Below, one piece after another: positions 24,593 through 48,044 of a stretch of DNA of 51,523 bases (the first letter of the stretch is position 1; every line of letters begins with the position of its first letter). The position numbers were made by a program, and so were the translations under genes. The notes under the pieces were generated by a model. It made no database searches, was not told the DNA's origin, and worked only from the letters and a program-made list of their open reading frames with translations. Location of the stretch: NCBI RefSeq assembly GCF_014695725.1, contig NZ_JACJOU010000018.1, forward strand, positions 1-51,523. The letters are read 5' to 3'. This stretch comes from Microcoleus sp. FACHB-672. GTDB taxonomy: Bacteria > Cyanobacteriota > Cyanobacteriia > Cyanobacteriales > Oscillatoriaceae.

Positions 24593-24814
24593 ATGGAAGT
24601 TATCAAAGTTAAAGTTAAACCCAATTCCAAACAACAAACCATACAGGAAGAGCCAGATGGGAGTTTTATGGTACATTTGAAGTCGCCGCCGGTGGATGGC
24701 AAAGCGAATGAGGAATTAATCAAACTTCTGGCTAAAAAATTTGAGATTCCTAAATTCCAAATCACGATTAAATCAGGTTTATCTTCGAGGAATAAGCTTG
24801 TTGAATTGGGATAG
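24593..24814 (+). CDS. DUF167 (YggU-like) family protein
   Basis: A 73-residue protein with the complete family pattern: [11 protein letters not shown] at the N-terminus, [20 protein letters not shown] in the middle, and [14 protein letters not shown] at the end. DUF167/YggU proteins are small, widespread alpha/beta proteins of unknown function. The length is typical of the short form. It is probably co-transcribed with the cupin gene. Confidence 0.9.
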
Positions 24815-25106
24815 AAGAGGGATTTTTTGATGGCTACTTTGAATTTAGCCTCAACTAGAACTTGTTTGAATGAGCGTGATATTCAGCAATAGATTTTATT
24901 GGCTTTGAGCCAAGATCTTTGCAAAATCGGAAATAGAGGCTGAAAAAGCCTACGCCATATAGGTTTTAGCGTTAAAGGGTTCTAGGTGTTAAGGAATTCT
25001 TCGCCAAGAGTATCAGGATCTCGGCTCAATGCCAACAAGTTCGCAAACTCCATGAGCAATAAAATGAGTAAACAAAGCAAAATAAGAAACTTTTTGTAAA
25101 TGTTGG
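24815..25106. other. Intergenic region between the DUF167 gene and an IS5 remnant
   Basis: About 290 bp without a supportable gene. It may contain further decayed IS sequence, since the transposase tail lies directly to the right, but I could not align a reading frame. Confidence 0.35.
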
Positions 25107-25283
25107 TTAAGTGTTTTTCACTGCCCACATTCGACGATTCTTTGTCAATCGCGTCAGCATCAACCGGATCATGATAACATAAACTATTCCTTCGTGATTT
25201 TCAGACAAGCATTTATAGTCACCAGTCAAAATGCGAGCATTGTCAAACCACGTCCAAGTGCATTCTATAATCCATAATTTTGG
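25107..25283 (-). pseudogene. IS5-family transposase remnant, C-terminal tail
   Basis: Translating the minus strand from about 25283 gives PKLWIIECTWTWFDNARIL, then TGDYKCLSENHEGIVYVIMIRLMLTRLTKN, ending at a stop at 25107-25109. This matches the C-terminal end of IS5-group transposases: the VERT(F/W) block, the DYE...E.(A/G)M(I/V)Y block and the final RLMLRRL. The Glu of the DDE triad survives in IIECT but the following Arg is lost, and an in-frame stop lies just upstream. It is the counterpart of the N-terminal remnant at 29341-29783. Confidence 0.8.
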
Positions 25284-25437
25284 TTATACTTGAAAGCTTT
25301 TGGCAGCTTCCTACAGATGTGGAGAGGGAAAAGGAATCGATAGCGAAGTATAGCTCTAAACTTTGTTAGTTTCTAATCTCCTGTCTTTTTGATATTTATT
25401 AAGTTAGCTTGAAAATACCATACAAGACATTTGCATT

Positions 25438-26811
25438 ATGTCACTGCTTCTACTATTAGCTGTACTCGTTTTAAGTGGTTTGTTAGTAAAAATCTACCGT
25501 GAACGGGAGCAATTAAGACACGACTTAAGTAGATATGGCAGTTTGCCTTCCAAAGAGGAGCGAGAAAGGCAACTGGATTCAAATATTTATCTTAAGGAAA
25601 GCGAACTCGAAAAGCTTCAGAGGGAGCAAAACAATTTTCTTACCCAAATTAGAAATCTTAGACAGAAATTGGAGGAGGTAGAAGAGGAGGAATATGTTCA
25701 AAACTTCGGATTTTACAAATCCAGGTATGATTTTAGAAGCTCCACAGAGTATGAGATTCGGCTAGAGGAAATAAGAGCCAAACAGAGCGGAAGGATAAAA
25801 AATCGTACAGCTGCCATCTGCCATGTACCCTGGACAGTTGAGGGTAGTAAAACGAAAGGGGAAGAAATGACAAATGACTATCTCAAACTTTTATTGAGAG
25901 CATTTAATGGAGAATGCGACGCGGCGATCGCCAAAGTTAAATATAACAATGCAGTTTCCTTAGAAAAGAGGATAAATAAGTCTTTCCAGGAACTCAACAA
26001 GTTGTCGGAGATAAATAAATGTGAAATTACATCTAGGTATCTCATCTTAAAACTTGAGGAACTATATCTTACCCATGAATTCCAGGAGAAAAAGAAGGAG
26101 GAAGATGAAGAACAAAAAAGAATCCGAGAACAGATGCGTGAAGAGAAACGGGCAAGCCGTGAACTAGAAAAAGCTAAAAAAGAGGCTGAGCAAGAAGTAA
26201 AACGTCGGGAGCAGGCTTTGGAGCAAGCAAGGCGAGAGGTTGTCCAAGCTGTAGGAAAACAAAAGGAACGTTTGGAAATCAAAATTCAACAATTGACTCA
26301 ACAGCTTGAAGAATCTCGAGCTGTTGAGCGCAAAGCAACGGCTCGTGTACAGATGACGAAATCAGCACACGTCTATATTATTTCAAATATTGGTTCTTTT
26401 GGAGAGAATGTTTATAAGATTGGGGTGACACGCCGCCTTGAACCGTTGGATCGTGTTAAAGAACTCAGCGGCCCAGCAGTTCCTTTTCCATTTGATGTTC
26501 ATGCAATGATATTTTCTGAAAATGCATTAGAAATGGAAAGGCTTTTACACGAGCATTTTTGGGAGAGAAGTGTAAATAAGTTTAATGACCGTAAGGAGTT
26601 TTTTAGAGTTTCTTTGGATGAAATTGCCTTGGCAGTGGAAGAAATCGCCTCAAGAACCAAGGCTGTCAAAAAAACAGAGCTAAAAATCACAAAAGTTGCA
26701 GAAGCTGAACAATACAGAAAGACACTTGCACTGGAAAGAAGCGGAACTTTACACTCACCCTCAAGCTATACACCCACATGGGATGAGGATGAAGAATTGG
26801 ATGATGAATAA
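25438..26811 (+). CDS. DUF4041 / T5orf172 (GIY-YIG-type) nuclease-like protein
   Basis: 457 residues. An N-terminal membrane helix (about 2-18) is followed by coiled coil (about 35-80), a DUF4041-like middle (about 90-205), and a long charged coiled coil (about 210-310, many E/K/R heptads). The C-terminal domain (about 318-405) reads HVYIISNIGSFGENVYKIG, VTRRLEPLDRVKEL and LLHEHFWERSVNKFNDRKEFF. That is the T5orf172/MUG113 branch of GIY-YIG nucleases found in phages and defence loci. The tail is acidic. The start is the ATG that begins the hydrophobic helix. The gene is convergent with the caspase operon and lies in the IS-bracketed island. A membrane-tethered nucleic-acid function is inferred. 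Confidence 0.82.
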   Translation: MSLLLLLAVLVLSGLLVKIYREREQLRHDLSRYGSLPSKEERERQLDSNIYLKESELEKLQREQNNFLTQIRNLRQKLEEVEEEEYVQNFGFYKSRYDFRSSTEYEIRLEEIRAKQSGRIKNRTAAICHVPWTVEGSKTKGEEMTNDYLKLLLRAFNGECDAAIAKVKYNNAVSLEKRINKSFQELNKLSEINKCEITSRYLILKLEELYLTHEFQEKKKEEDEEQKRIREQMREEKRASRELEKAKKEAEQEVKRREQALEQARREVVQAVGKQKERLEIKIQQLTQQLEESRAVERKATARVQMTKSAHVYIISNIGSFGENVYKIGVTRRLEPLDRVKELSGPAVPFPFDVHAMIFSENALEMERLLHEHFWERSVNKFNDRKEFFRVSLDEIALAVEEIASRTKAVKKTELKITKVAEAEQYRKTLALERSGTLHSPSSYTPTWDEDEELDDE

Positions 26812-26877
26812 ATGAAGAGCATCTTATTCATGACCGTTGTGATCCTGTAATGCAGAAGCAAAGCGAGCTTTGTAAGA

Positions 26878-28857
26878 TTACTTAGCCTGACAAACAACCC
26901 TGAAACCAATTCGGTTAAGCCTCTCTTCTGGTTCCCAACCAAAGCGAAATGCAGAACGGCAAAGTGGTGGGTCGTTATCCCATGAACCGCCACGCATTAC
27001 TCGAGACTGATTCAAATTATCCGTCAGCCCTACGCTGCCATCATTAGGTAAACAATCATAGCTGTCATGGAAGTAATCTAAGCACCATTCCCAGACATTA
27101 CCATGCATATCAAATAGTCCAAAAGCATTTGCAAATTGAAAAGTTTTTATTGAGGTTGTTTCCTCCCGATAGGCACCTTTAGGACCAGATGCATATTTGT
27201 AACGACCATCGTAATTGGCTATATCCGGTGTAATCGTTTTGCCAAAATGAAACGGGGTTGTTGTTTGAGCACGGCACGCGTATTCCCACTCTGCCTCAGT
27301 TGGAAGGCAATATTCATGATCGGTTCTCTGAGATAGTCGCTCACAAAATTCAACAGCTTCATACCAAGAAATAGTTTCTACAGGTCGAGCAGATCCCTTA
27401 AAGCAAGAAGGATTAGGGTGAAGGTCCAAATTAACCTTGGGTAGGGAAGATACCACCCTCCACTGTGCCTGTGTGATTGGTGTTTTAGCAATCAAGAATG
27501 ATTTGACTGTTACTGATTGCTGAGGAGTCTCATTAGGTCGTCGGCCTAACTCAGTCTCTGGTGAACCTATTAAGAAGCTCCCTCCAGGGATATAAACCAT
27601 TTCCAATTTTACCTTATCGTCAAAATTCTCAGTGAAATAGTAAGCATTCCCTCGACGACGAGTAATTTCTTTACCTAACTTATCGAGAGTTATGTAATCA
27701 AAATAAAAGGGTTTTAGAGGCAAAGATAAAGGAGGCGGGGGAGGTGGGGGGATGGAAATTGAAGATTTGTCAGGATGGATTGCGGAAGAAGCCAGACTAC
27801 TGAAGATACGCTTAGTCACACTTTCTACGTCTTCATCCGTAAGATTCAGCTCATGCTGTAGAATTTTGAGTTCCCGTTGAGCGTGATCGCCTAAGGAAAA
27901 GTCGTTCTTCAGTTCTGCCTGGAAACATTCCTCATATTGCTTTAAATTACTCTTATATTCGCGGTAGGGCTGCCAAACTTCAGCTTCGATTAAGGTAGCT
28001 TCCTCATCAGAAAGCTTGAGCTTCTTGCGTTGGAGATCAAGGATGCGGCGTCCAGTTGGGGAGATTTCATCTTGAGAGCTACATTGTTCAACTAGCTTGC
28101 GATATTGTTGCTTGCGATCATTGTTTGCTGCTTTTGCCAATAAAATCGCTTCCCCTTCTTGGAAAACATACCGTTCTGGTCGCATAGAAGGAGCGGCTTT
28201 AGGGACTTGCTCCTTAACATACTCATGCAACTCGTTTATTGAGATAAAACCATCCTCATCCAGGTCAGCAGCTCCCGTTTTAATGCCTTCAACAAGATAG
28301 CGTGTGTAAACTGCTAGTTGTTCTCCTTCTCGCGGTTCAAAAGAGTATTGGGTTGCTGCTGAGGAGGTAAGGATAACGCGCCCTTTGCCACCAAGCTGCC
28401 GTGGAAAGTCAATCATGCCACCATCCCTAGCGGCCATACCTGTTGGAAACGCTCCACTATGGCAACAATCAAGGATGATTACTTGCCGTTCAGAGCCGCA
28501 ATTATCCATCTGGTCATGTATAAAACTGGCTTCCAAAGCGGTTGCTTTCTCGAAACGGCTTTGTTTCTCCGTCTCTCGATTTGTGAGGAAAAACTTTCCA
28601 AACTCATCGGTAACTCCATGTCCTGAAAAATACAGTAGCAACAGATCGTCTACATCCCGATCCGTAAACAGCTTGCTAATCGCACGTCGCATTTCTAGCA
28701 ATCTAGGATTTTTGAGGGGAATAACTTCATCAAATTCACCTATCTCTGGATCAAGTAGTACCTCCTGCATTGCATCAACGTCTCTAGTTGCTGCCGGTAG
28801 CGGCTTTAAGCCCGGCTCATATTCACTAACCCCTATCAACAATGCATATTTTGCCAT
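26878..28857 (-). CDS. Orthocaspase-EF-hand-FGE fusion protein
   Basis: 659 residues, cytoplasmic. The caspase-like domain (about 1-245) has catalytic H80 in YFSGHG and C132 in DCCHSG. A canonical EF-hand loop, DLDEDGFISINE (198-209), follows, so calcium control is likely, as in known metacaspases. A helical region (about 250-370) contains two copies of a unit like RRILDLQRKKLKLSDEEATLIE. After a polyproline linker (about 376-385) comes an FGE/SUMF1-type domain (about 415-659: MVYIPGGSFLIGS, LPTEAEWEYACRA, DMHGNVWEWC, RGGSW, IGFRV). This domain normally serves here as a ligand-binding C-lectin-like fold rather than as an enzyme. It starts 5 bp after the EACC1-like gene, so the two are translationally coupled. 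Confidence 0.92.
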   Translation of the reverse strand: MAKYALLIGVSEYEPGLKPLPAATRDVDAMQEVLLDPEIGEFDEVIPLKNPRLLEMRRAISKLFTDRDVDDLLLLYFSGHGVTDEFGKFFLTNRETEKQSRFEKATALEASFIHDQMDNCGSERQVIILDCCHSGAFPTGMAARDGGMIDFPRQLGGKGRVILTSSAATQYSFEPREGEQLAVYTRYLVEGIKTGAADLDEDGFISINELHEYVKEQVPKAAPSMRPERYVFQEGEAILLAKAANNDRKQQYRKLVEQCSSQDEISPTGRRILDLQRKKLKLSDEEATLIEAEVWQPYREYKSNLKQYEECFQAELKNDFSLGDHAQRELKILQHELNLTDEDVESVTKRIFSSLASSAIHPDKSSISIPPPPPPPLSLPLKPFYFDYITLDKLGKEITRRRGNAYYFTENFDDKVKLEMVYIPGGSFLIGSPETELGRRPNETPQQSVTVKSFLIAKTPITQAQWRVVSSLPKVNLDLHPNPSCFKGSARPVETISWYEAVEFCERLSQRTDHEYCLPTEAEWEYACRAQTTTPFHFGKTITPDIANYDGRYKYASGPKGAYREETTSIKTFQFANAFGLFDMHGNVWEWCLDYFHDSYDCLPNDGSVGLTDNLNQSRVMRGGSWDNDPPLCRSAFRFGWEPEERLNRIGFRVVCQAK

Positions 28858-28862
28858 TAGCG

Positions 28863-29240
28863 CTATTCCAACTGTGAGAATCGTTGAATAGCTTCTTCTG
28901 CTGCCTGAAGTTCTAGTTGACTACGGGCTTCTACTTCAAACTCTCTCCCATCTGCAAACTTCGCCTTGATTTTGATTGGCTTGTCTCCCAAACGATCGCC
29001 CAGGAAACCAAAGACATTCTTGAGGCTGCTTAAGCTAACCTTGGCTTGGAGCAATCCCCACAAAAATGCGGCTCCTTTGCTCTCTTCAGGAGGATTGGGG
29101 TCAGAAACACGATCAACTTTCACACCTGGAATATCGCGCATTTGCTTCCAGATGGTTTGGGTCAGCTTTTCCTGTTGGGTAGAACTGGTGCCAGAGTTTT
29201 GAAAATCAATGGTCAATTCTATAGAGGCAGTATCCGTCAT
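28863..29240 (-). CDS. Small EACC1-like protein encoded with the caspase
   Basis: A 125-residue soluble protein. A beta-rich N-terminus (ASIELTIDFQNS) leads to IPGVKVDRVSDP, a short hydrophobic helix around GAAFLWGLLQAKVSL, and a C-terminal beta-beta-helix unit with IKIKAKFADGREFEVEARS and LQAAEEAIQRF. This layout resembles effector-associated constant component 1 (EACC1), a small family encoded beside proteases and other effectors in bacterial conflict systems. The assignment rests on pattern and context, not on a search. It is the first gene of the two-gene operon, and its stop is 5 bp from the caspase ATG. Confidence 0.72.
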   Translation of the reverse strand: MTDTASIELTIDFQNSGTSSTQQEKLTQTIWKQMRDIPGVKVDRVSDPNPPEESKGAAFLWGLLQAKVSLSSLKNVFGFLGDRLGDKPIKIKAKFADGREFEVEARSQLELQAAEEAIQRFSQLE

Positions 29241-29340
29241 ATGGTAAACCCTTTGCTATAAACGCATCGAACAAGATTTTAGCCTGTGGCGGAACGGCTA
29301 CAACGGTGAAAGTCCGCTCGTACATTTTAAAGTGACTAGC

Positions 29341-29783
29341 TTAAGAAAAACAAATGTTTCCTGTTATCTGCTGAATAAAGGCATATAGATTCGGCGGCGC
29401 TGCTTTTACATCTGCTGTATTGGCAGAACTGACGTAACAACCCAAAACTAATCCCAACACATTTACCACAATGTGGCGCTTGCGCCATTGCACCTTTTTG
29501 TTGCTATCAAACCCGTGTTGTTCGCGCCTTTTTGCCCCAGTTTGACCGACTGACTATCAATATTTGCCAGACTCGGTTGAGCCAAGCGCCCCTCACTGGC
29601 TCGCACTTGCTGCGCCAGCTCGGCATTGATTTGCTCCCAGATGCCTAATCTCATCCATAGCCAATAGTAGCCTTACACAGTTTGCCACGTTGGAAAATCA
29701 CTGGGCAAATTATGCCATTTGATGCCATTGTCGGCTCGGTAGAAAATCCCATTCAAAACGTCTCTTAAGCTGACTTCTCGAGG
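29341..29783 (-). pseudogene. IS5-family transposase pseudogene, N-terminal two thirds
   Basis: Minus-strand translation gives PREVSLRDVLNGIFYRADNG, IKWHNLPSDFPTWQTV, a stop, then GYYWLWMRLGIWEQINAEL and SLANIDSQSVKLGQKGANNT. A frameshift follows, and then GFDSNKKVQWRKRHIVVNVL, GLVLGCYVSSANTADVKAAP and NLYAFIQQITGN before a stop at 29341. This is the canonical IS5-group order, including the first DDE Asp in IDSQSVK. The C-terminal third (the VERT region) is absent here but a matching piece lies at 25107-25283. The element is inactive. It separates the caspase operon from the GGDEF-EAL gene. Confidence 0.88.
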
Positions 29784-29877
29784 ATTTACCTACCCAGCAA
29801 AAATATCAGCAGCCGCTACATTTGCAATTTCCTCATCCCTACGCTGCCGGCATTCTTCCAAAAATTTACAGGACTGA

Positions 29878-32721
29878 TTAAAAATGAGAGGGATGTGGCC
29901 TAGCAATTCCATAGCCTTGGGCGTAATCGACTCCCAGCGTCCGCAGCTTCATGAGGATTGCATCATTTTCCACAAACTCAGCAATCGTTTGTAACCCCAT
30001 GACATGAGCAATGCGGTTAATCGCTTCTATCATTGCAAAGTCGAGTGGGTTATCCACAACATTTTTGACAAAACTGCCATCAATTTTAAGATAATCCACC
30101 GGCAGGTTTTTTAAATAAGCAAAAGAAGACGTGCCACTGCCAAAATCATCTAAAGCAAAATAACAGCCCAATTTCTTGAAAGTGTGGATGAACTGAGCAA
30201 CTTTCGTTAAATTAGCCAGGGCGACTGTTTCTGGAATCTCAAAACAAAGAACGTGAGGCGGAACTTCATGCAAAGCGAATTGCTCTTGCAGAAAATCATG
30301 GAACTGGTCATCATTAAGGGTGGCACCAGAAAGATTAATACCATAAAGCCTTTGCAGGCAACCGGCAGGCTGTTGAGGGGTGCCGGCATCCAACTGATTG
30401 TGGTGCGCTGACAGGTGAGTAAATAACGTGCGAATCACCCAGCGATCAATCGTGTGCATAATGTTGTAGCGTTCCGCTGCGGGAATAAACGCCATTGGCG
30501 AAACCAGATCGCCGGCTTCATCTTCAAGGCGCAGCAGCACTTCATAATGCTCTCTGTTTAATGAGCCATCTGTAATTGGCACAATTGGTTGGAAAAAAAG
30601 ACGAAAGCGATTCTCTTCAAACCCTTGCGTAATTCGGGAAACCCATTGCATTTGGCTGTGGTGCTGTGCCAATTCGGTTTCATCACTTTGATGAACGTGC
30701 ACTCGATTTCGTCCCTGTTCTTTCGCAGTATAACAAGCCCCATCTGCTGCATTTAATACATGGGTCAAACTATAACTTTCTGTGTTAATTGCAACCAAAC
30801 CAATACTGGCACCAATGCTAAAGGTTTTATCCTCCCAAACAAAACGAAATGCTTGGATACTTTCACGGAGCGAATTTGCAATTCGCCGCGCTTGTTCTAA
30901 GGGACATTGGTGAAGCAGCACGGCAAATTCATCGCCGCCAAGACGAGCAAGACTATCCGTTTTACGCACACCGGCTTGTAGAAGGGTGCTAATTTGACGC
31001 AGCAATTCATCCCCAGCCACGTGACCGCAAGTATCATTAACAATCTTGAACCGATCAAGATCCAGATAACAAAGTGCGTGCTGTTGATTTTGCGTCTGAG
31101 CAATCAGCAAAGCCCGTTTCAAATGTTGTTCAAATTCGCGCCGGTTGATTAAGCCGGTTAAGGCATCATGACTGGCTTGCCAGGATAACTGACGGGCAAG
31201 GGCGCGTTCTTCGGTAACATCGTGAAATACCAGCACCGCACCGATAATTTGACCGGCACTGGCGAGAATAGGTGCAACCGATTCATCAATGGCAAACTCT
31301 GTACCGTCTTTGGCAATGAGTAGGGTTGGGTTAGCCAGTTCTCCAATGCGGTTGCCACGCAGGGCGGCTTCTACCGGGTTGTCCACCGGCTCACGGGTGA
31401 TTTCATGAACAAGCCGAAACACTTCGCTCACTGGCTTGCCAATGGCGTCTTGAGCCGGCCAGCCAGTCAATCTTTGGGCTGCGGGATTGAGAGAGGTAAT
31501 ATAGCCCAAAGCATTCGTGGTAATGACTGCATCGCAAATTGAGTGCAGCGTGATCTGAGCGAGTTCTTTTTCTTGCAACAGCGCTTGTTCAACGCATTCG
31601 CGTTCGATGATTTCCTGGCGCAGTTTTGCATTCGCTTTTTCGAGTTCGGCAGTGCGTTCTTTCACCAGTTCTTGCAGGTGTTCCTTATGCTCACGCAGCT
31701 GTTTTTCCGCCCGTTTGCGCTCTACAATTTCCACAACTAGCTGGTCGTTCGATTCTTTTAACGCGGCAGTGCGTTCCTCAACTCGAATTTCCAGCTGTTC
31801 CTTTGCCTCTTTGAGTGCGGCTTGTGCCCGTTGGCGCTCGGTGATATCGATGCCGGTGGCGATAATATATTTGATTGAGCCGTCTGGGTCGCAAAGCACG
31901 GTATTTGTCCAAGCAATCAGCCGGCGATTTCCACTTTTTGTCACCCAGTAATTTTCATATTGGTGCGGACACTGGCTTGTTTGCAGCTCTTTAAAAACCG
32001 CAACCGCCGGCTCAACCTCTTCAGGAAGTAGCAACAAATCCCAGAACAACCGGCCTTCCGCTTCCTGCGCTGAGTATTCCGTGGTTTGCTCACAGCACCG
32101 ATTAAAGCGGATAATTCGCCCCTGTGGGTCAAGAACGACGACTAAAGCACCAGCAGTATCCAACACGGTTGTAACAAAGTTACGCTCCTCTCGTAAGGCT
32201 TCTTCAGCGGCTTTACGTTGTGTAATGTCTCTTGCCACCCAAATCACCTTGTCTACCTGCATTGGCGAAATGCTAGCGGCAAACCATCGAGTGGGCACCT
32301 GTCCGTGCGCCCCTCCCGACTCTCCCATAAGCAGACCGTACTCAACATTAATCATCTGCCCAGTTTCTAAAGCCTGATGGATATAGCTGAGAAACAGTTC
32401 AGCTTGGGATGGCTCAAAAACCTCATGCAGTTCTCGGCCAATTAGCTCAGTTGCCGGTTTGTACAAAAGCGCGGGATTTGTGGGCGCAATTTTAAGATAG
32501 CGTCCTCGCGCGTTGAAAACGACGATGACATCGGGTATTGCCGCTAATATGACGCGAAGTTCAGCCTCTGAAGTCCGCAGTGCTTTTGCCGTCCATTCCC
32601 GTTCAGCAATCTCAAGTTGCAGTTGCTCATTCGCTTGCTTGAGTTTCCTGTCTTCTGGGGGTAATAGGGGGGTGGCAAGCTTCTCTACGGTCGGTTTTAG
32701 CTCCTTATTGGCCTTCTTCAT
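29878..32721 (-). CDS. PAS-GGDEF-EAL cyclic-di-GMP signalling protein
   Basis: A 947-residue cytoplasmic sensor-effector. An N-terminal coiled coil (about 20-50) is followed by PAS domains at about 50-170 and 180-296, a long coiled coil (296-385), a third PAS (about 385-505), GGDEF (about 510-680) and EAL (about 695-945). The diguanylate cyclase site GGDEF (595-599) is intact, with a product-inhibition RxxD (586-589) five residues before it. In the EAL domain the signature is EVL (727-729) instead of EAL, while DDFGSG (858-863), LKIDGSF and the final Glu (AEFVE) are kept. Phosphodiesterase activity is possible but not certain. The ATG overlaps the stop of the upstream gene as ATGA. Confidence 0.94.
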   Translation of the reverse strand: MKKANKELKPTVEKLATPLLPPEDRKLKQANEQLQLEIAEREWTAKALRTSEAELRVILAAIPDVIVVFNARGRYLKIAPTNPALLYKPATELIGRELHEVFEPSQAELFLSYIHQALETGQMINVEYGLLMGESGGAHGQVPTRWFAASISPMQVDKVIWVARDITQRKAAEEALREERNFVTTVLDTAGALVVVLDPQGRIIRFNRCCEQTTEYSAQEAEGRLFWDLLLLPEEVEPAVAVFKELQTSQCPHQYENYWVTKSGNRRLIAWTNTVLCDPDGSIKYIIATGIDITERQRAQAALKEAKEQLEIRVEERTAALKESNDQLVVEIVERKRAEKQLREHKEHLQELVKERTAELEKANAKLRQEIIERECVEQALLQEKELAQITLHSICDAVITTNALGYITSLNPAAQRLTGWPAQDAIGKPVSEVFRLVHEITREPVDNPVEAALRGNRIGELANPTLLIAKDGTEFAIDESVAPILASAGQIIGAVLVFHDVTEERALARQLSWQASHDALTGLINRREFEQHLKRALLIAQTQNQQHALCYLDLDRFKIVNDTCGHVAGDELLRQISTLLQAGVRKTDSLARLGGDEFAVLLHQCPLEQARRIANSLRESIQAFRFVWEDKTFSIGASIGLVAINTESYSLTHVLNAADGACYTAKEQGRNRVHVHQSDETELAQHHSQMQWVSRITQGFEENRFRLFFQPIVPITDGSLNREHYEVLLRLEDEAGDLVSPMAFIPAAERYNIMHTIDRWVIRTLFTHLSAHHNQLDAGTPQQPAGCLQRLYGINLSGATLNDDQFHDFLQEQFALHEVPPHVLCFEIPETVALANLTKVAQFIHTFKKLGCYFALDDFGSGTSSFAYLKNLPVDYLKIDGSFVKNVVDNPLDFAMIEAINRIAHVMGLQTIAEFVENDAILMKLRTLGVDYAQGYGIARPHPSHF

Positions 32722-40085: not shown

Positions 40086-41876
40086 TTAAATAGTCCTCGC
40101 GGGAACGAGTGCCACCCGAAAACCGATGCCGACGTACCTGAAGTCCGGCACGATACCGCTACGATAGGCAGCGCGGCAGTTCCTGGGGTAGTTGTACCAA
40201 GAACCTCCACGCAGCAACCGGCGATTGCTATCTCCACCACTTTCCCAAGCACTGCCATCAGAAGGCGCACCGTTATAATTTTCATGCCAGACATCTTGAC
40301 ACCACTCCCAAACATTGCCGTGCATATCATACAGCCCGAATGCGTTGGGGCGGAAACTCCCAACATCGGTTGTTTGTTGCCGGTAAACGCCTTCTAGTTC
40401 CCAGCAGTAAAGGCCGCCGAAAGAGTAGTAGTTGCCATTATAGTTGGCTAAATCTGGAGTCAGAGTTTTGCCAAAGTGAAACGGTGTAGTGGTGCCAGCG
40501 CGGCAGGCGTATTCCCATTCAGCCTCGCTGGGTAAGCAATAGTTGCGCCCTGTTATTTGCGACAGTTTCTGGCAAAATTCAATAGCATTATTCCAAGATA
40601 CCTGTTCCACCGGCCTGTTATTGCCTTTAAATTTAGCGGGTTTATTGCCCATCACTAATTCCCACTGCGCTTGAGTGACAGGATATTTTCCTAGGAAAAA
40701 CGGCTGTATCGTTACCCGATGCTGCGGACTTTCATCGCTACATCGCTCTTTTTCCGTTATTGGAGAACCCATGAGAAATGTGCCGCCCGGAATTGACACC
40801 ATTTCCAAACTGACATTGTTGCCGAGTTTTTCTGCAAAAATGTCAGCTTGTCCTTGCTGCCGGTTAACAAATTCTCCTGTGAATTGAAAAGAGGAAGTTG
40901 GAAGGATGGGTGCTGCGCTCGCTTTACTCGGTGGAGATGGGACGGAAGGAGTTGGAAGGACTGGTGCCGAGATAATAGTCTTCATTTGAGATGGGGCTGT
41001 TGGCAACGCTGATCCTGACACGAAAGAATTCAGTGCTTCCAAAGCTTCTGTCGCATTCGCATAGCGCCCAGTAAAGTGATCTCGCACCATTTTGCTTAAA
41101 ATGTCTGCTAAAGCGTCACTCACAGAAGCATGATTTTTCCAAATCACTTCACCCTCATTATCTTCTTCGAGTAAGTAAGGCTCGATGCCAGTCAAAGCAA
41201 AAATAACTGTCCTCCCCAGTGCGTAAATATCGCTGCTTGGTTTTGGTTTACCCATTGCCTGTTCACTGGGCATATAGCCGTGAGTTCCAATAGAAACCGT
41301 GCGGCTAGTTTTCCCTGATAAAATTGTCTTCTGGATGCCAATCTCCTTAACTGCACCAAAGTCAATTAGCATCAACTTGCCATCTGTTCGCCGCATGATA
41401 TTCTGGGGCTTAATATCTCGATGGATGATATTGTTCTGATGAACATAGGCCAGGATTTCTAAAATATCCTGTAATAATTTAATCGCATAGGTTTCGCTTA
41501 ACTTTTTGCCTGGACTCAATTCTTTGCTTAAGTCATGCCCTTCGATAAATTCTTGAATGAGATAAAATTCTTGATTTTCTTCAAAATAGGCAAACAGCTT
41601 GGGAATGCGCTCATGGTTTTGCGCGAGTTTATATAAAATTTCTGCTTCTTTTTGAAATAACCGCTGGATATCCGGTTCGATAGTTTGGGGGTGAAGCCGC
41701 TTGACGACACATTTAGGCTTCGGGGTGACGGGAATATCTAAATCGTTTGCCAAATAGGTTTCGCCAAACCCACCGCTTCCCAGCAGTTTGACGATTTCGT
41801 AACGATTCCGCAGTATGGTGCCGACAACGAGCATAGTGGGTACTCCGGGCAGTGGCAATTTAATTGATTTTCGCAT
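40086..41876 (-). CDS. Ser/Thr protein kinase-FGE domain fusion
   Basis: 596 residues. The Hanks-type kinase domain (about 26-290) has the Gly-rich loop GSGGFG (33-38), K59 (VVKRL), HRDIKPQN (152-159) and DFG (172-174), so it should be active. A Pro/Ser/Thr linker (about 292-345) leads to an FGE-sulfatase-type domain (about 350-596), with MVSIPGGTFLMGSP, LPSEAEWEYACRAG, DMHGNVWEWC and the C-terminal RGGSW and IGFRVAL. This domain probably binds a ligand. Two starts are plausible: ATG 41876 (AAGGG upstream) and ATG 41834 (GGAG upstream, MLVVGTILRNRY). The FGE part is clearly paralogous to that of the caspase protein at 26878-28857. There are no membrane segments. Confidence 0.93.
   Translation of the reverse strand: MRKSIKLPLPGVPTMLVVGTILRNRYEIVKLLGSGGFGETYLANDLDIPVTPKPKCVVKRLHPQTIEPDIQRLFQKEAEILYKLAQNHERIPKLFAYFEENQEFYLIQEFIEGHDLSKELSPGKKLSETYAIKLLQDILEILAYVHQNNIIHRDIKPQNIMRRTDGKLMLIDFGAVKEIGIQKTILSGKTSRTVSIGTHGYMPSEQAMGKPKPSSDIYALGRTVIFALTGIEPYLLEEDNEGEVIWKNHASVSDALADILSKMVRDHFTGRYANATEALEALNSFVSGSALPTAPSQMKTIISAPVLPTPSVPSPPSKASAAPILPTSSFQFTGEFVNRQQGQADIFAEKLGNNVSLEMVSIPGGTFLMGSPITEKERCSDESPQHRVTIQPFFLGKYPVTQAQWELVMGNKPAKFKGNNRPVEQVSWNNAIEFCQKLSQITGRNYCLPSEAEWEYACRAGTTTPFHFGKTLTPDLANYNGNYYSFGGLYCWELEGVYRQQTTDVGSFRPNAFGLYDMHGNVWEWCQDVWHENYNGAPSDGSAWESGGDSNRRLLRGGSWYNYPRNCRAAYRSGIVPDFRYVGIGFRVALVPARTI
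40108..40200 (-). other. Candidate DGR-type variable region at the 3' end of the kinase-FGE gene
   Basis: From the Trp codon of GGSW to IGFRV, the positions that are Asn (AAY) in diversity-generating-retroelement templates read TAC, AAC, TAC, AAC, TAT, AGC, GGT, ATC, TTC, TAC, GTC, GGC. All end in C or T and differ from AAY at positions 1 and 2 only. Invariant codons lie between. No reverse transcriptase or template repeat is in the window, so this is a hypothesis. Confidence 0.45.
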
Positions 41877-46751: not shown

Positions 46752-48044
46752 TTACCTTTTGCTCTTGGTTCTCGGTTCTATGACTTGTGAATTTACACCG
46801 TAAAGCTTAGCTGCTTGAGACATATTGAGTTGGAGTAACTTTTCTTCTCCCATTTGCCAAATTTCTGCCGGCTTCTGCAGGGGTACATTTAAAACATGGA
46901 TAATCTCTGATGCCACAGCTTTCGCTAATAAAGGTGGCACCGAGTTGCCTATTTGCCGGCAGCCGTGCCACTTTGTCACATGGAATCTAAACCAGTCGGG
47001 GTATGAGTGCAACCGCGCTGCCTCCCGTACCGTAATACATCGCGGCGTGAATGGATGAATAGGTCGAGGAGAGGTGAAAGCGCCGCGATTGCTTGCCGTG
47101 CCGGCTCTTAGTGTATTGCAAATGCCTTGCGGAGCAAGCTTATGGAAGCGACTGATTGGCTCTATTTTACCGGCAACGGTGCCGGCGAATCTTTTGATGG
47201 ATTCCAGGGTATGTTGTGTGCCCAAACTAGAAGTCAGCAGTTGCGAATTAAATGGTCGCCGGTAGGAGTAATCATCCTCTATAGGGTAAGGATTACGAAG
47301 TTGACCGCTATATTGACTCGGCTTTCCATACTCTGCAATCACCCAATCTTTGCTGAGCAATTCTGGGTAATCTTCGACTTCCGGTAAGTCTCCTATCGCA
47401 TCCCAGACGGTAGGGCAAGCGGGAAACATAGATAATTTGCTGGAATTTTTACCGCTTAATGTTGCAGGGTAGGTAATCACTTGAGGGTATCGCGGTAAAG
47501 TTAAGCCTTTTTTACATCCCAAAAGAAACAATCTTTCCCGATTTTGGGGGACGCCATAGTAAGCGGCATTAAGAACTTTATAATTTTCTTCTATTTCATA
47601 ATCATTTAATCTAAATTTCTCTATAATCTCCTCCAAGAATTTCTGATGCTTTCCGAGGGTGAGACCTCGCACGTTTTCCATCACAAAATATTTCGGTTTG
47701 AGATCTAAAACCAGCCGCAGAAAGTGAAAAACGAGGGAGTTGCGAGGATCATCGAGTGCCCTTTTGCCAATTAGAGAAAATCCTTGACAGGGAGGGCCAC
47801 CGAACACAACATCAATCTCGCGATTTCCTATTGCAGATAAATTTCTGATTTCGTCTGCATTTGTATCGGCAACACTCTGGCACAAAACTGAGCAAAACGG
47901 GAAATTGAACTCGTGAGTCGCGCAATGAATGGGATCAAGTTCCACCGCAGCTAGTACATCAAATCCTGCTTGTTCAAATCCCAAAGTCATGCCGCCCGCG
48001 CCGGCAAACAAATCAACACCGATTGGACGGGTCGTTCCGTTCAT
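46752..48044 (-). CDS. DNA (cytosine-5)-methyltransferase
   Basis: A 430-residue C5-cytosine methyltransferase. The conserved motifs are in order: I DLFAGAGG (11-18), IV GGPPCQGFS (82-90, catalytic C86), VI MENVRG (about 122-127), VIII QNRERLF (about 167-173), then a target-recognition region (about 190-330), IX ITVREAARLHSYPDWF, and X QIGNSVPP. A C-terminal tail (about 393-430) goes beyond the usual end and contains an LQLNMSQAAKLYG segment that resembles a small helix-turn-helix. No restriction endonuclease gene is adjacent, so it is solitary. The recognition sequence cannot be read from the protein; a CCGG-containing site is a hypothesis (see findings). Confidence 0.94.
   Translation of the reverse strand: MNGTTRPIGVDLFAGAGGMTLGFEQAGFDVLAAVELDPIHCATHEFNFPFCSVLCQSVADTNADEIRNLSAIGNREIDVVFGGPPCQGFSLIGKRALDDPRNSLVFHFLRLVLDLKPKYFVMENVRGLTLGKHQKFLEEIIEKFRLNDYEIEENYKVLNAAYYGVPQNRERLFLLGCKKGLTLPRYPQVITYPATLSGKNSSKLSMFPACPTVWDAIGDLPEVEDYPELLSKDWVIAEYGKPSQYSGQLRNPYPIEDDYSYRRPFNSQLLTSSLGTQHTLESIKRFAGTVAGKIEPISRFHKLAPQGICNTLRAGTASNRGAFTSPRPIHPFTPRCITVREAARLHSYPDWFRFHVTKWHGCRQIGNSVPPLLAKAVASEIIHVLNVPLQKPAEIWQMGEEKLLQLNMSQAAKLYGVNSQVIEPRTKSKR

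Follow-up and report, generated by a model that had tools for sequence, protein, structure and literature searches.

PD-lambda-1, since renamed SNIPE, is a protein of the Escherichia coli inner membrane that cuts the DNA of phage lambda during injection (Saxton et al. 2026, PMC13190303). According to the available parts of that paper, the DUF4041 domain helps the protein to bind DNA and is probably its point of contact with the tape-measure protein; defence is abolished by E414A or by loss of DUF4041, and removal of the membrane helix makes the protein toxic, host DNA then being cut. In canu, as far as the accessible text of PMC12799240 describes it, a caspase activates a nuclease of a different kind. 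The locus analysed here is a block of three genes in a 51,523-nucleotide stretch of Microcoleus sp. FACHB-672 (contig NZ_JACJOU010000018.1; this whole stretch is called the window): a DUF4041 gene related to SNIPE, a convergent gene for a caspase ending in a domain of the formylglycine-generating enzyme (FGE) family, and a small EACC1-like gene. The paired arrangement of the first two recurs in cyanobacteria and is read here as a SNIPE-FGE module, in which an injection-sensing membrane protein would be wired to a protease; its role is predicted to be defence.

Judged by sequence, the DUF4041 gene of the window is homologous to that of PD-lambda-1/SNIPE of E. coli. The PADLOC PD-Lambda-1 models match its 457-aa product with a best E of 2.6e-148, DUF4041 scores 80.1 bits (Pfam cut-off 27), and the MUG113 and T5orf172 matches likewise exceed their Pfam cut-offs. 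Residue E365 aligns with E414 of an annotated 500-aa PD-lambda-1 (L285). The N-terminal hydrophobicity reaches 2.58 over residues 1-19, and the structure model consists of an N-terminal helix (2-34), long helices (coiled coil), DUF4041 and an alpha/beta C-terminal domain, with a mean predicted local distance difference test score of 85 and a predicted template modelling score of 0.47. A Foldseek search with this model returned the GIY-YIG domain of Slx1 at a probability of 0.94-0.95 but with E of about 0.35, and the sequence search of solved structures with one alignment (A3) gave three weak matches (E 0.11-0.41), none a nuclease. Homology to the experimentally proven E. coli SNIPE suggests a defence role for the cassette. 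The same genome encodes one more SNIPE homologue on a different contig (L088, G000:C14:66829-68121); it is unpaired and has the catalytic Glu.

The SNIPE genes have been surveyed with the PD-Lambda-1 model (E<=1e-20) in 388 genomes of the class, one genome per species, and were found in 36. Up to 20 kb was fetched around all 39 SNIPE loci besides the window, less where contigs were short. An FGE gene (E<=1e-10) is present in 12 of these 39 loci, one in each, always adjacent downstream and convergent. The search by partner added two pairs, on plasmid6 of Nostoc sp. HK-01 and in Trichocoleus sp. FACHB-40, so that 15 pairs are available including the window, with stop-codon gaps of 12-145 bp. Starting from the FGE genes, SNIPE is present in 2 of 80 fetched loci, both times convergent and adjacent; one is Trichocoleus FACHB-40, and the other encodes a SNIPE with the same sequence as in L104. 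Two further searches at the level of the order, covering 36 and 42 genomes, yielded only genomes already in the sample. No FGE gene lies in the fetched stretch of the 22 unpaired SNIPEs with a nuclease domain, though for L095 this stretch covers only 310 bp downstream and a partner beyond stays possible; nor is there one in the fetched stretch of the 80 viral SNIPE loci retained out of 109, which were gathered by similarity to the window protein and hence are not a neutral sample. Among the open reading frames (ORFs) downstream of 21 of the 22 unpaired SNIPEs (at least 120 aa, within 3 kb), no two are homologous at E<=1e-10. In this sample SNIPE therefore mostly stands alone and has an FGE gene in one group. 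The settings of the 15 paired loci mostly differ, a flank ORF being common to 6 of 105 locus pairs.

The EACC1-caspase has been considered as the constant partner of SNIPE and rejected: by BLASTP at E<=1e-5 with the window caspase and EACC1-like protein as queries, a caspase match occurs in 2 of the 39 other SNIPE loci (both at ~25% identity) and an EACC1 match in none. The constant part of the SNIPE partner is the FGE domain. The pairing appears to be undescribed in the literature searched, subscription papers and preprints being outside its scope; the available parts of papers mentioning DUF4041 name neither caspase, formylglycine nor cyanobacteria, and the entries listed for Pepco, T5orf172, MUG113, EAD8 and caspase give no link from SNIPE to these.

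A maximum-likelihood tree has been built from 38 SNIPE proteins (15 paired, 22 unpaired and the E. coli-type PD-lambda-1), with a midpoint root for drawing only. All 15 paired SNIPEs lie on one side of a single branch (support 99/97; 200 of 200 bootstrap trees), and the pairing is a single gain on this tree; with shuffled pairing labels the mean is 11.8 changes. The window and L104 group together (100/98), separate from the other 13 paired proteins (100/100). A quick tree of 94 FGE domains likewise separates the 15 paired domains from 79 unpaired ones by one branch (97 in the Shimodaira-Hasegawa-like approximate likelihood ratio test), the latter being drawn from loci similar to the window protein plus one window paralogue and thus not a neutral sample. 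Thirteen paired domains cluster (99), while those of the window and L104 fall outside with a placement that is not resolved; support is weak for roughly half of the inner branches, and L117 and L118 are long.

The nuclease residues differ between paired and unpaired proteins. Glu stands at the E414 position in 80/80 viral SNIPEs and in 22/22 unpaired cyanobacterial SNIPEs with the domain, and in 2/15 paired ones (the window and L104). The other 13 carry Leu, Ile or Val there, and the Gly of their KIG motif is gone as well. The fragments L119, L121, L122 and L123 were left out of this alignment; L120, which has no nuclease domain, was aligned but not used for the tree. Every residue-less SNIPE (13/13) is paired, that is, 11/11 in the class-wide sample and the two found via the partner. 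DUF4041 is above the Pfam cut-off in all nine tested of these 13, and the altered nuclease domain is under purifying selection, with a ratio of nonsynonymous to synonymous substitution rates of about 0.07-0.17 in the three informative of six computed pairs. The nuclease seems to be inactive in 13 of the 15 paired SNIPEs.

The two partners diverge together. The distances of SNIPE and of the FGE domain correlate with r=0.78 over 14 pairs (without L110, a near-copy of L108), and none of 5000 permutations was as high. In the ten caspase-type pairs SNIPE against FGE gives r=0.77 (0/5000) and SNIPE against caspase r=0.35 (136/5000). Between the window and L104 identity is 65% for SNIPE, 60% for FGE and 22% for the caspase. 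The partner operons, typed by Pfam on representatives and for the remaining loci by eye from translations, are (i) Pepco with caspase-FGE, at eight loci; (ii) caspase-FGE without detected Pepco, at two; (iii) EAD8-trypsin with an EAD8-like FGE protein, at three, the trypsin gene seeming to be fragmented in Nostoc HK-01; (iv) a TIR-like gene (below the Pfam cut-off) with an FGE protein, at one; and (v) EACC1-like with caspase-FGE, in the window only. The EACC1-type caspase model scores 55-76 bits on 9 of the 10 other paired caspases, far below 140, and the caspase His and Cys motifs are kept in 11 of 11 caspase partners. The earlier note on this DNA had described the three genes as one self-contained cassette. 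As a fixed unit this is not supported, EACC1-caspase having been seen with SNIPE only in the window and other pairs carrying other modules; the cassette idea itself gains support beyond that note because the DUF4041 and FGE-domain genes recur as a convergent pair. The most divergent pair is that of the TIR-like gene and FGE protein (L118, genome G194), whose SNIPE-type protein is possibly a soluble version.

The probability that SNIPE and the FGE protein form a module of two convergent genes acting together against phage is put at about one half. The N-terminal helix would anchor the SNIPE-type protein in the inner membrane, and the protein would detect injection of the phage genome through DUF4041. 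The partner would carry a protease at the N-terminus and an FGE-fold (lectin-like) domain at the C-terminus; this domain might dock either with the SNIPE-type protein itself or with its phage target. The protease would then be turned on, so that the cell is killed or arrested. In most lineages the nuclease would have decayed, leaving the sensing part alone. The roles of membrane sensor for the SNIPE-type protein and responder for the protease-FGE protein are proposed because the membrane anchor and DUF4041 are kept and the cutting residues are not. In the window, incoming DNA would probably be cut directly and the protease fired as a back-up, since the nuclease residues are in place. What the sequences show is homology, the domain make-up, an accessory location, active-site residues, a recurrent convergent pairing, co-divergence and an exchanged protease module; docking, the signalling order, cell death and the defence against phage are what we infer. 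More tentatively, and with rather more doubt than belief, the pairs may represent a new defence class in cyanobacteria, in which a SNIPE-derived membrane alarm, usually with a dead nuclease, triggers an exchangeable protease or TIR protein via an FGE-fold adaptor; the window would be an intermediate with the nuclease intact and an EACC1-caspase swapped in.

Several results count against such a module. Recurrence reflects inheritance and transfer and not independent invention, because the pairing has one origin, and co-expression is not implied because convergent genes form no operon. Co-divergence is not exclusive to the FGE domain: in the nine caspase-type pairs without the window, SNIPE against caspase gives r=0.59 (9/5000). 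As this value is 0.35 with the window and 0.59 without it, the protease would mostly have been inherited with the pair and exchanged in the window. The loss of nuclease activity is read from sequence; a MUG113 or T5orf172 match is kept in 8 of 9 tested residue-less SNIPEs (L117 falls below the Pfam nuclease models), and a structure search with a residue-less model gave no GIY-YIG among the 50 matches listed. The hydrophobic N-terminal stretch, kept in 14 of 15 paired SNIPEs, is lost in L118. The EACC1-like protein has no clear membrane helix, its best 19-aa hydropathy value being 0.88, from residue 63.

Two explanations draw on the intact active sites of the window, where nuclease and caspase residues are both in place. 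The genes may be independent and share only their transport, SNIPE cutting phage DNA alone and EACC1-caspase-FGE acting as a suicide system of its own. In E. coli SNIPE has been proven to work as a single gene (available text of PMC13190303), 22 SNIPEs with a nuclease domain have no FGE gene in the fetched stretch (310 bp downstream for L095), and EACC1-type caspases are common, with matches at E<=1e-20 in 230/388 genomes, 120 of them above the cut-off, against 36/388 for SNIPE. This is nevertheless rather unlikely: all 13 residue-less SNIPEs are paired, a Glu-less nuclease under purifying selection is hardly a stand-alone cutter, and SNIPE and FGE co-diverge, FGE staying as the protease changes. 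Alternatively, infection might lead the caspase to cleave the window SNIPE C-terminal to the membrane helix, setting free a nuclease that would shred host DNA in an abortive infection. Both the toxicity of helix-less SNIPE, which cuts host DNA (PMC13190303, in the sections available), and the existence of caspase-activated pro-nucleases (canu, PMC12799240, likewise in part) make this conceivable, but it is unlikely, and would not be a general role if the nuclease is dead in 13 of 15 pairs. Going by its residues, the window locus could combine direct cutting with protease-triggered death, or its caspase could release the nuclease.

A reversed relation has also been considered, in which the SNIPE-type protein restrains a protease-FGE toxin at the membrane as its immunity part, and interference by phage frees the protease. 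The tight, conserved pairing with a SNIPE-type partner usually lacking nuclease residues, and the stop-codon gaps of 12-145 bp, would suit it; it is made improbable by FGE proteins, some of full caspase-FGE length, that have no SNIPE in the fetched stretch at 78 of 80 loci similar to the window protein. Least probable is a pair for cell death or stress response of filamentous cyanobacteria outside defence. The literature, as far as its accessible parts go, does contain reviews and surveys on cyanobacterial and bacterial caspase homologues in cell death, but the homology to SNIPE, the location of one pair on a plasmid, the absence of the block from its site in close relatives and the conflict-type cargo (CHAT, DUF1822) at the same site all speak against this reading.

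If the SNIPE-FGE module is real, the retention of a residue-less SNIPE next to an exchangeable protease would imply that injection sensing has taken on a new use, as a trigger of programmed death, and the cyanobacterial caspase/FGE proteins would gain a concrete candidate trigger. The window locus is informative here: with both sets of active-site residues present, direct cutting and suicide could be separated in one pair.

The gene reading of the earlier note has been confirmed: EACC1-like, caspase/FGE and convergent DUF4041/GIY-YIG genes are enclosed by pieces of an insertion sequence (IS) (Table 1). Of the domains named there, DUF4041 and T5orf172 pass in hidden Markov model searches, whereas EACC1 and the EF-hand remain below their cut-offs. 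The 659-aa protein contains Peptidase_C14 (caspase) and a C-terminal FGE-sulfatase domain, both above the Pfam cut-off; its EF-hand match reaches 15.1 bits (cut-off 25.4), with a canonical-looking loop, DLDEDGFISINE, present. The caspase passes NCBIfam NF047832, "caspase, EACC1-associated type" (166.8 bits against 140), and has the active-site motifs, with His in FSGHG and Cys132. The small upstream protein, at 16.3 bits for Pfam EACC1, misses the cut-off of 23.6 and is for this reason called EACC1-like. Its gene lies 5 bp upstream of the caspase gene, and BLASTP homologues occur in 20 of 30 loci fetched with the EACC1-associated caspase model; the assignment is the least secure of the gene calls. 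The GC (guanine plus cytosine) content is 39.8% in the DUF4041 gene, the flanks having 48.1% and 47.3%.

Table 1. Features of the three-gene block and its borders in the window
Feature	Position	Strand	Basis or remark
DUF167 gene	24593..24814	+	Pfam DUF167 82.4 bits; left flank of variable site, conserved
Segment of unexplained origin	24828..25084		257 bp between conserved left flank and IS end
IS5-type element, 3' part	25085..25301	-	77.5% identity to L297 2037-2253; ends at terminal repeat
SNIPE / PD-lambda-1 homologue, 457 aa	25438..26811	+	PADLOC PD-Lambda-1, Pfam, E365 = E414
Gap between convergent stop codons, 66 bp	26812..26877		Range 12-145 bp across 15 pairs
Caspase / EF-hand-like loop / FGE-domain protein, 659 aa	26878..28857	-	Pfam, NCBIfam, motifs, alignment to solved FGE
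EACC1-like protein, 125 aa	28863..29240	-	Weak Pfam EACC1; homologues in 20/30 caspase_w_EACC1 loci; spacing
IS5-type element, internal 5' part, frame broken	29396..29790	-	76% identity to L297 1492-1885; DUF4096 IS4/5 transposase domain
Right junction	29778..29790		Short overlap: IS copy and congener chromosome both match
PAS/GGDEF/EAL gene	29878..32721	-	Conserved right flank; identity 96% in G002, 94% in G001

The chromosomal site is variable (empty, with this cassette, or with other cargo). In one congener (G001) the similarity to the window breaks off and starts again after 301 bp, the flanking genes lying ~0.4 kb from each other, and the interval has no match to the IS pieces or the cassette. 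A second congener (G002) holds 7.3 kb of other cargo at the same place (L019 7650-14962), with genes for a CHAT plus periplasmic-binding protein, for a DUF1822 protein, for an SBBP/RTX-repeat protein and for a 233-aa product that matches no Pfam family. A different genus of the family is represented by G003, G006 and G007, whose DUF167 and GGDEF/EAL matches are 185, 163 and 168 bp apart. On the left side homology ends at 24827 against G001 and at 24831 against G002; a search of 19 other genomes at E<=0.001 gave nothing for the segment that follows (24828-25084), and no tRNA gene marking the site was found in the window. The proposal that IS pieces and genes form an accessory block fits these relatives: all are absent together from the site in both congeners, the spacing of 163-185 bp in the other genus agrees, and no conserved synteny of the three genes with lysC, nnr or psb32 was seen across relatives. 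The cargo of G002 resembles another caspase-fold conflict locus. It may be of a similar broad kind to the surroundings of EACC2-caspase systems, because DUF1822 genes, together with ECF sigma-factor genes, are described as adjoining these systems in the available text of Kaur et al. (2021, PMC8195603).

The enclosing pieces, described in the earlier note as two halves of an IS5 transposase, do belong together as parts of one decayed IS5-type element; about 326 bp are missing from it, and its high-coordinate side is no IS end. A search with the N-terminal piece gave matches at E<=1e-22 in 47 of the 388 genomes, the window genome included, and 8 of 11 loci fetched besides the window's own were compared (L305-L307 left out). 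In all eight, both pieces match within one IS in the same order and orientation, the main matches having 70-79% DNA identity (in L300 the second piece is matched over 85 bp only). Both pieces lie on the minus strand; the one at high coordinates is the N-terminal part, the one at low coordinates the C-terminal part. In L297 the IS is bounded by inverted repeats (1317-1333 and 2237-2253); window 29790->29396 corresponds to IS 1492-1885 and window 25301->25085 to IS 2037-2253. The low-coordinate piece therefore ends at the IS terminus, whereas on its high-coordinate side the element is cut short at about 29780-29790, where congener homology resumes (29778). Missing are 175 bp of the 5' end and 151 bp of the middle, whose place is occupied by the three-gene block, and the transposase frame is disrupted by stops and frame changes. 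As both pieces fit one IS in order, with an internal stretch and the 5' end lacking, this is a single element interrupted and truncated; the order in which IS and cassette arrived cannot be told. An IS-flanked composite transposon has been rejected, the pieces being two parts of one interrupted, truncated IS and not two complete copies, and movement of the cassette by the IS is not a supported part of the block reading. Eight matches of equal score and identity to a relative of this element occur in one genome (G332, the source of L297 and others), which suggests recent IS activity there.

Elsewhere in the window, a protein kinase-like gene (by eye; 40086-41876) carries an FGE domain that falls in the unpaired FGE group, and a DNA cytosine-methyltransferase-like gene (46752-48044, from its translation by eye) has no obvious restriction partner adjoining it.

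Formylglycine-generating enzymes have two active-site cysteines, both of which are needed. In the alignment of the window FGE domain to solved 6muj/2q17, the first cysteine is replaced by Asn and the second is kept. Because of this replacement, and because PvdO and the T. denticola variable protein score best among its solved relatives, the domain is unlikely to be an enzyme. The 3' end of the FGE region has also been considered as a target of a diversity-generating retroelement (DGR) and rejected, there being no copy elsewhere in the genome beyond matches of 15-22 bp; the single RVT_1 match of the genome is on contig 13, another contig than that of the window.

Compared with E. coli SNIPE, the window protein shares the membrane N-terminus, DUF4041, the GIY-YIG domain and the putative catalytic Glu (E414 = E365). 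However, the E. coli system is a single gene, whereas here SNIPE is half of a convergent pair, and 13 of 15 pairs lack the nuclease residues. The DGR-diversified conflict sensors with FGE/C-type-lectin domains, as outlined in the available parts of PMC10907252, also have an FGE-fold C-terminal domain on a conflict protein, but the window FGE lacks a template-like copy of its 3' end of more than 15-22 bp. The EACC1-caspase System 4 (Kaur et al. 2020, PMC7159879, in the sections available) has the same plan of a small EACC1-like 5' gene and a caspase 3' gene with a variable C-terminal domain. It differs in that the window FGE domain comes from the SNIPE-paired lineage, with a SNIPE gene converging on the caspase gene, and in that System 4 EACC1 has a single conserved membrane helix, which is not clear in the window protein; the available text of PMC7159879 mentions neither GIY-YIG, T5orf172 nor MUG113. 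Canu (Tuck et al. 2025, PMC12799240) likewise places a caspase gene beside a nuclease gene in a defence setting. Its gated nuclease is of the metallo-beta-lactamase type and its caspase carries an Ig-like fold, in contrast to the membrane GIY-YIG/DUF4041 protein and the caspase with FGE of the window. Judged by the accessible text, canu is the nearest published analogue of the pairing.

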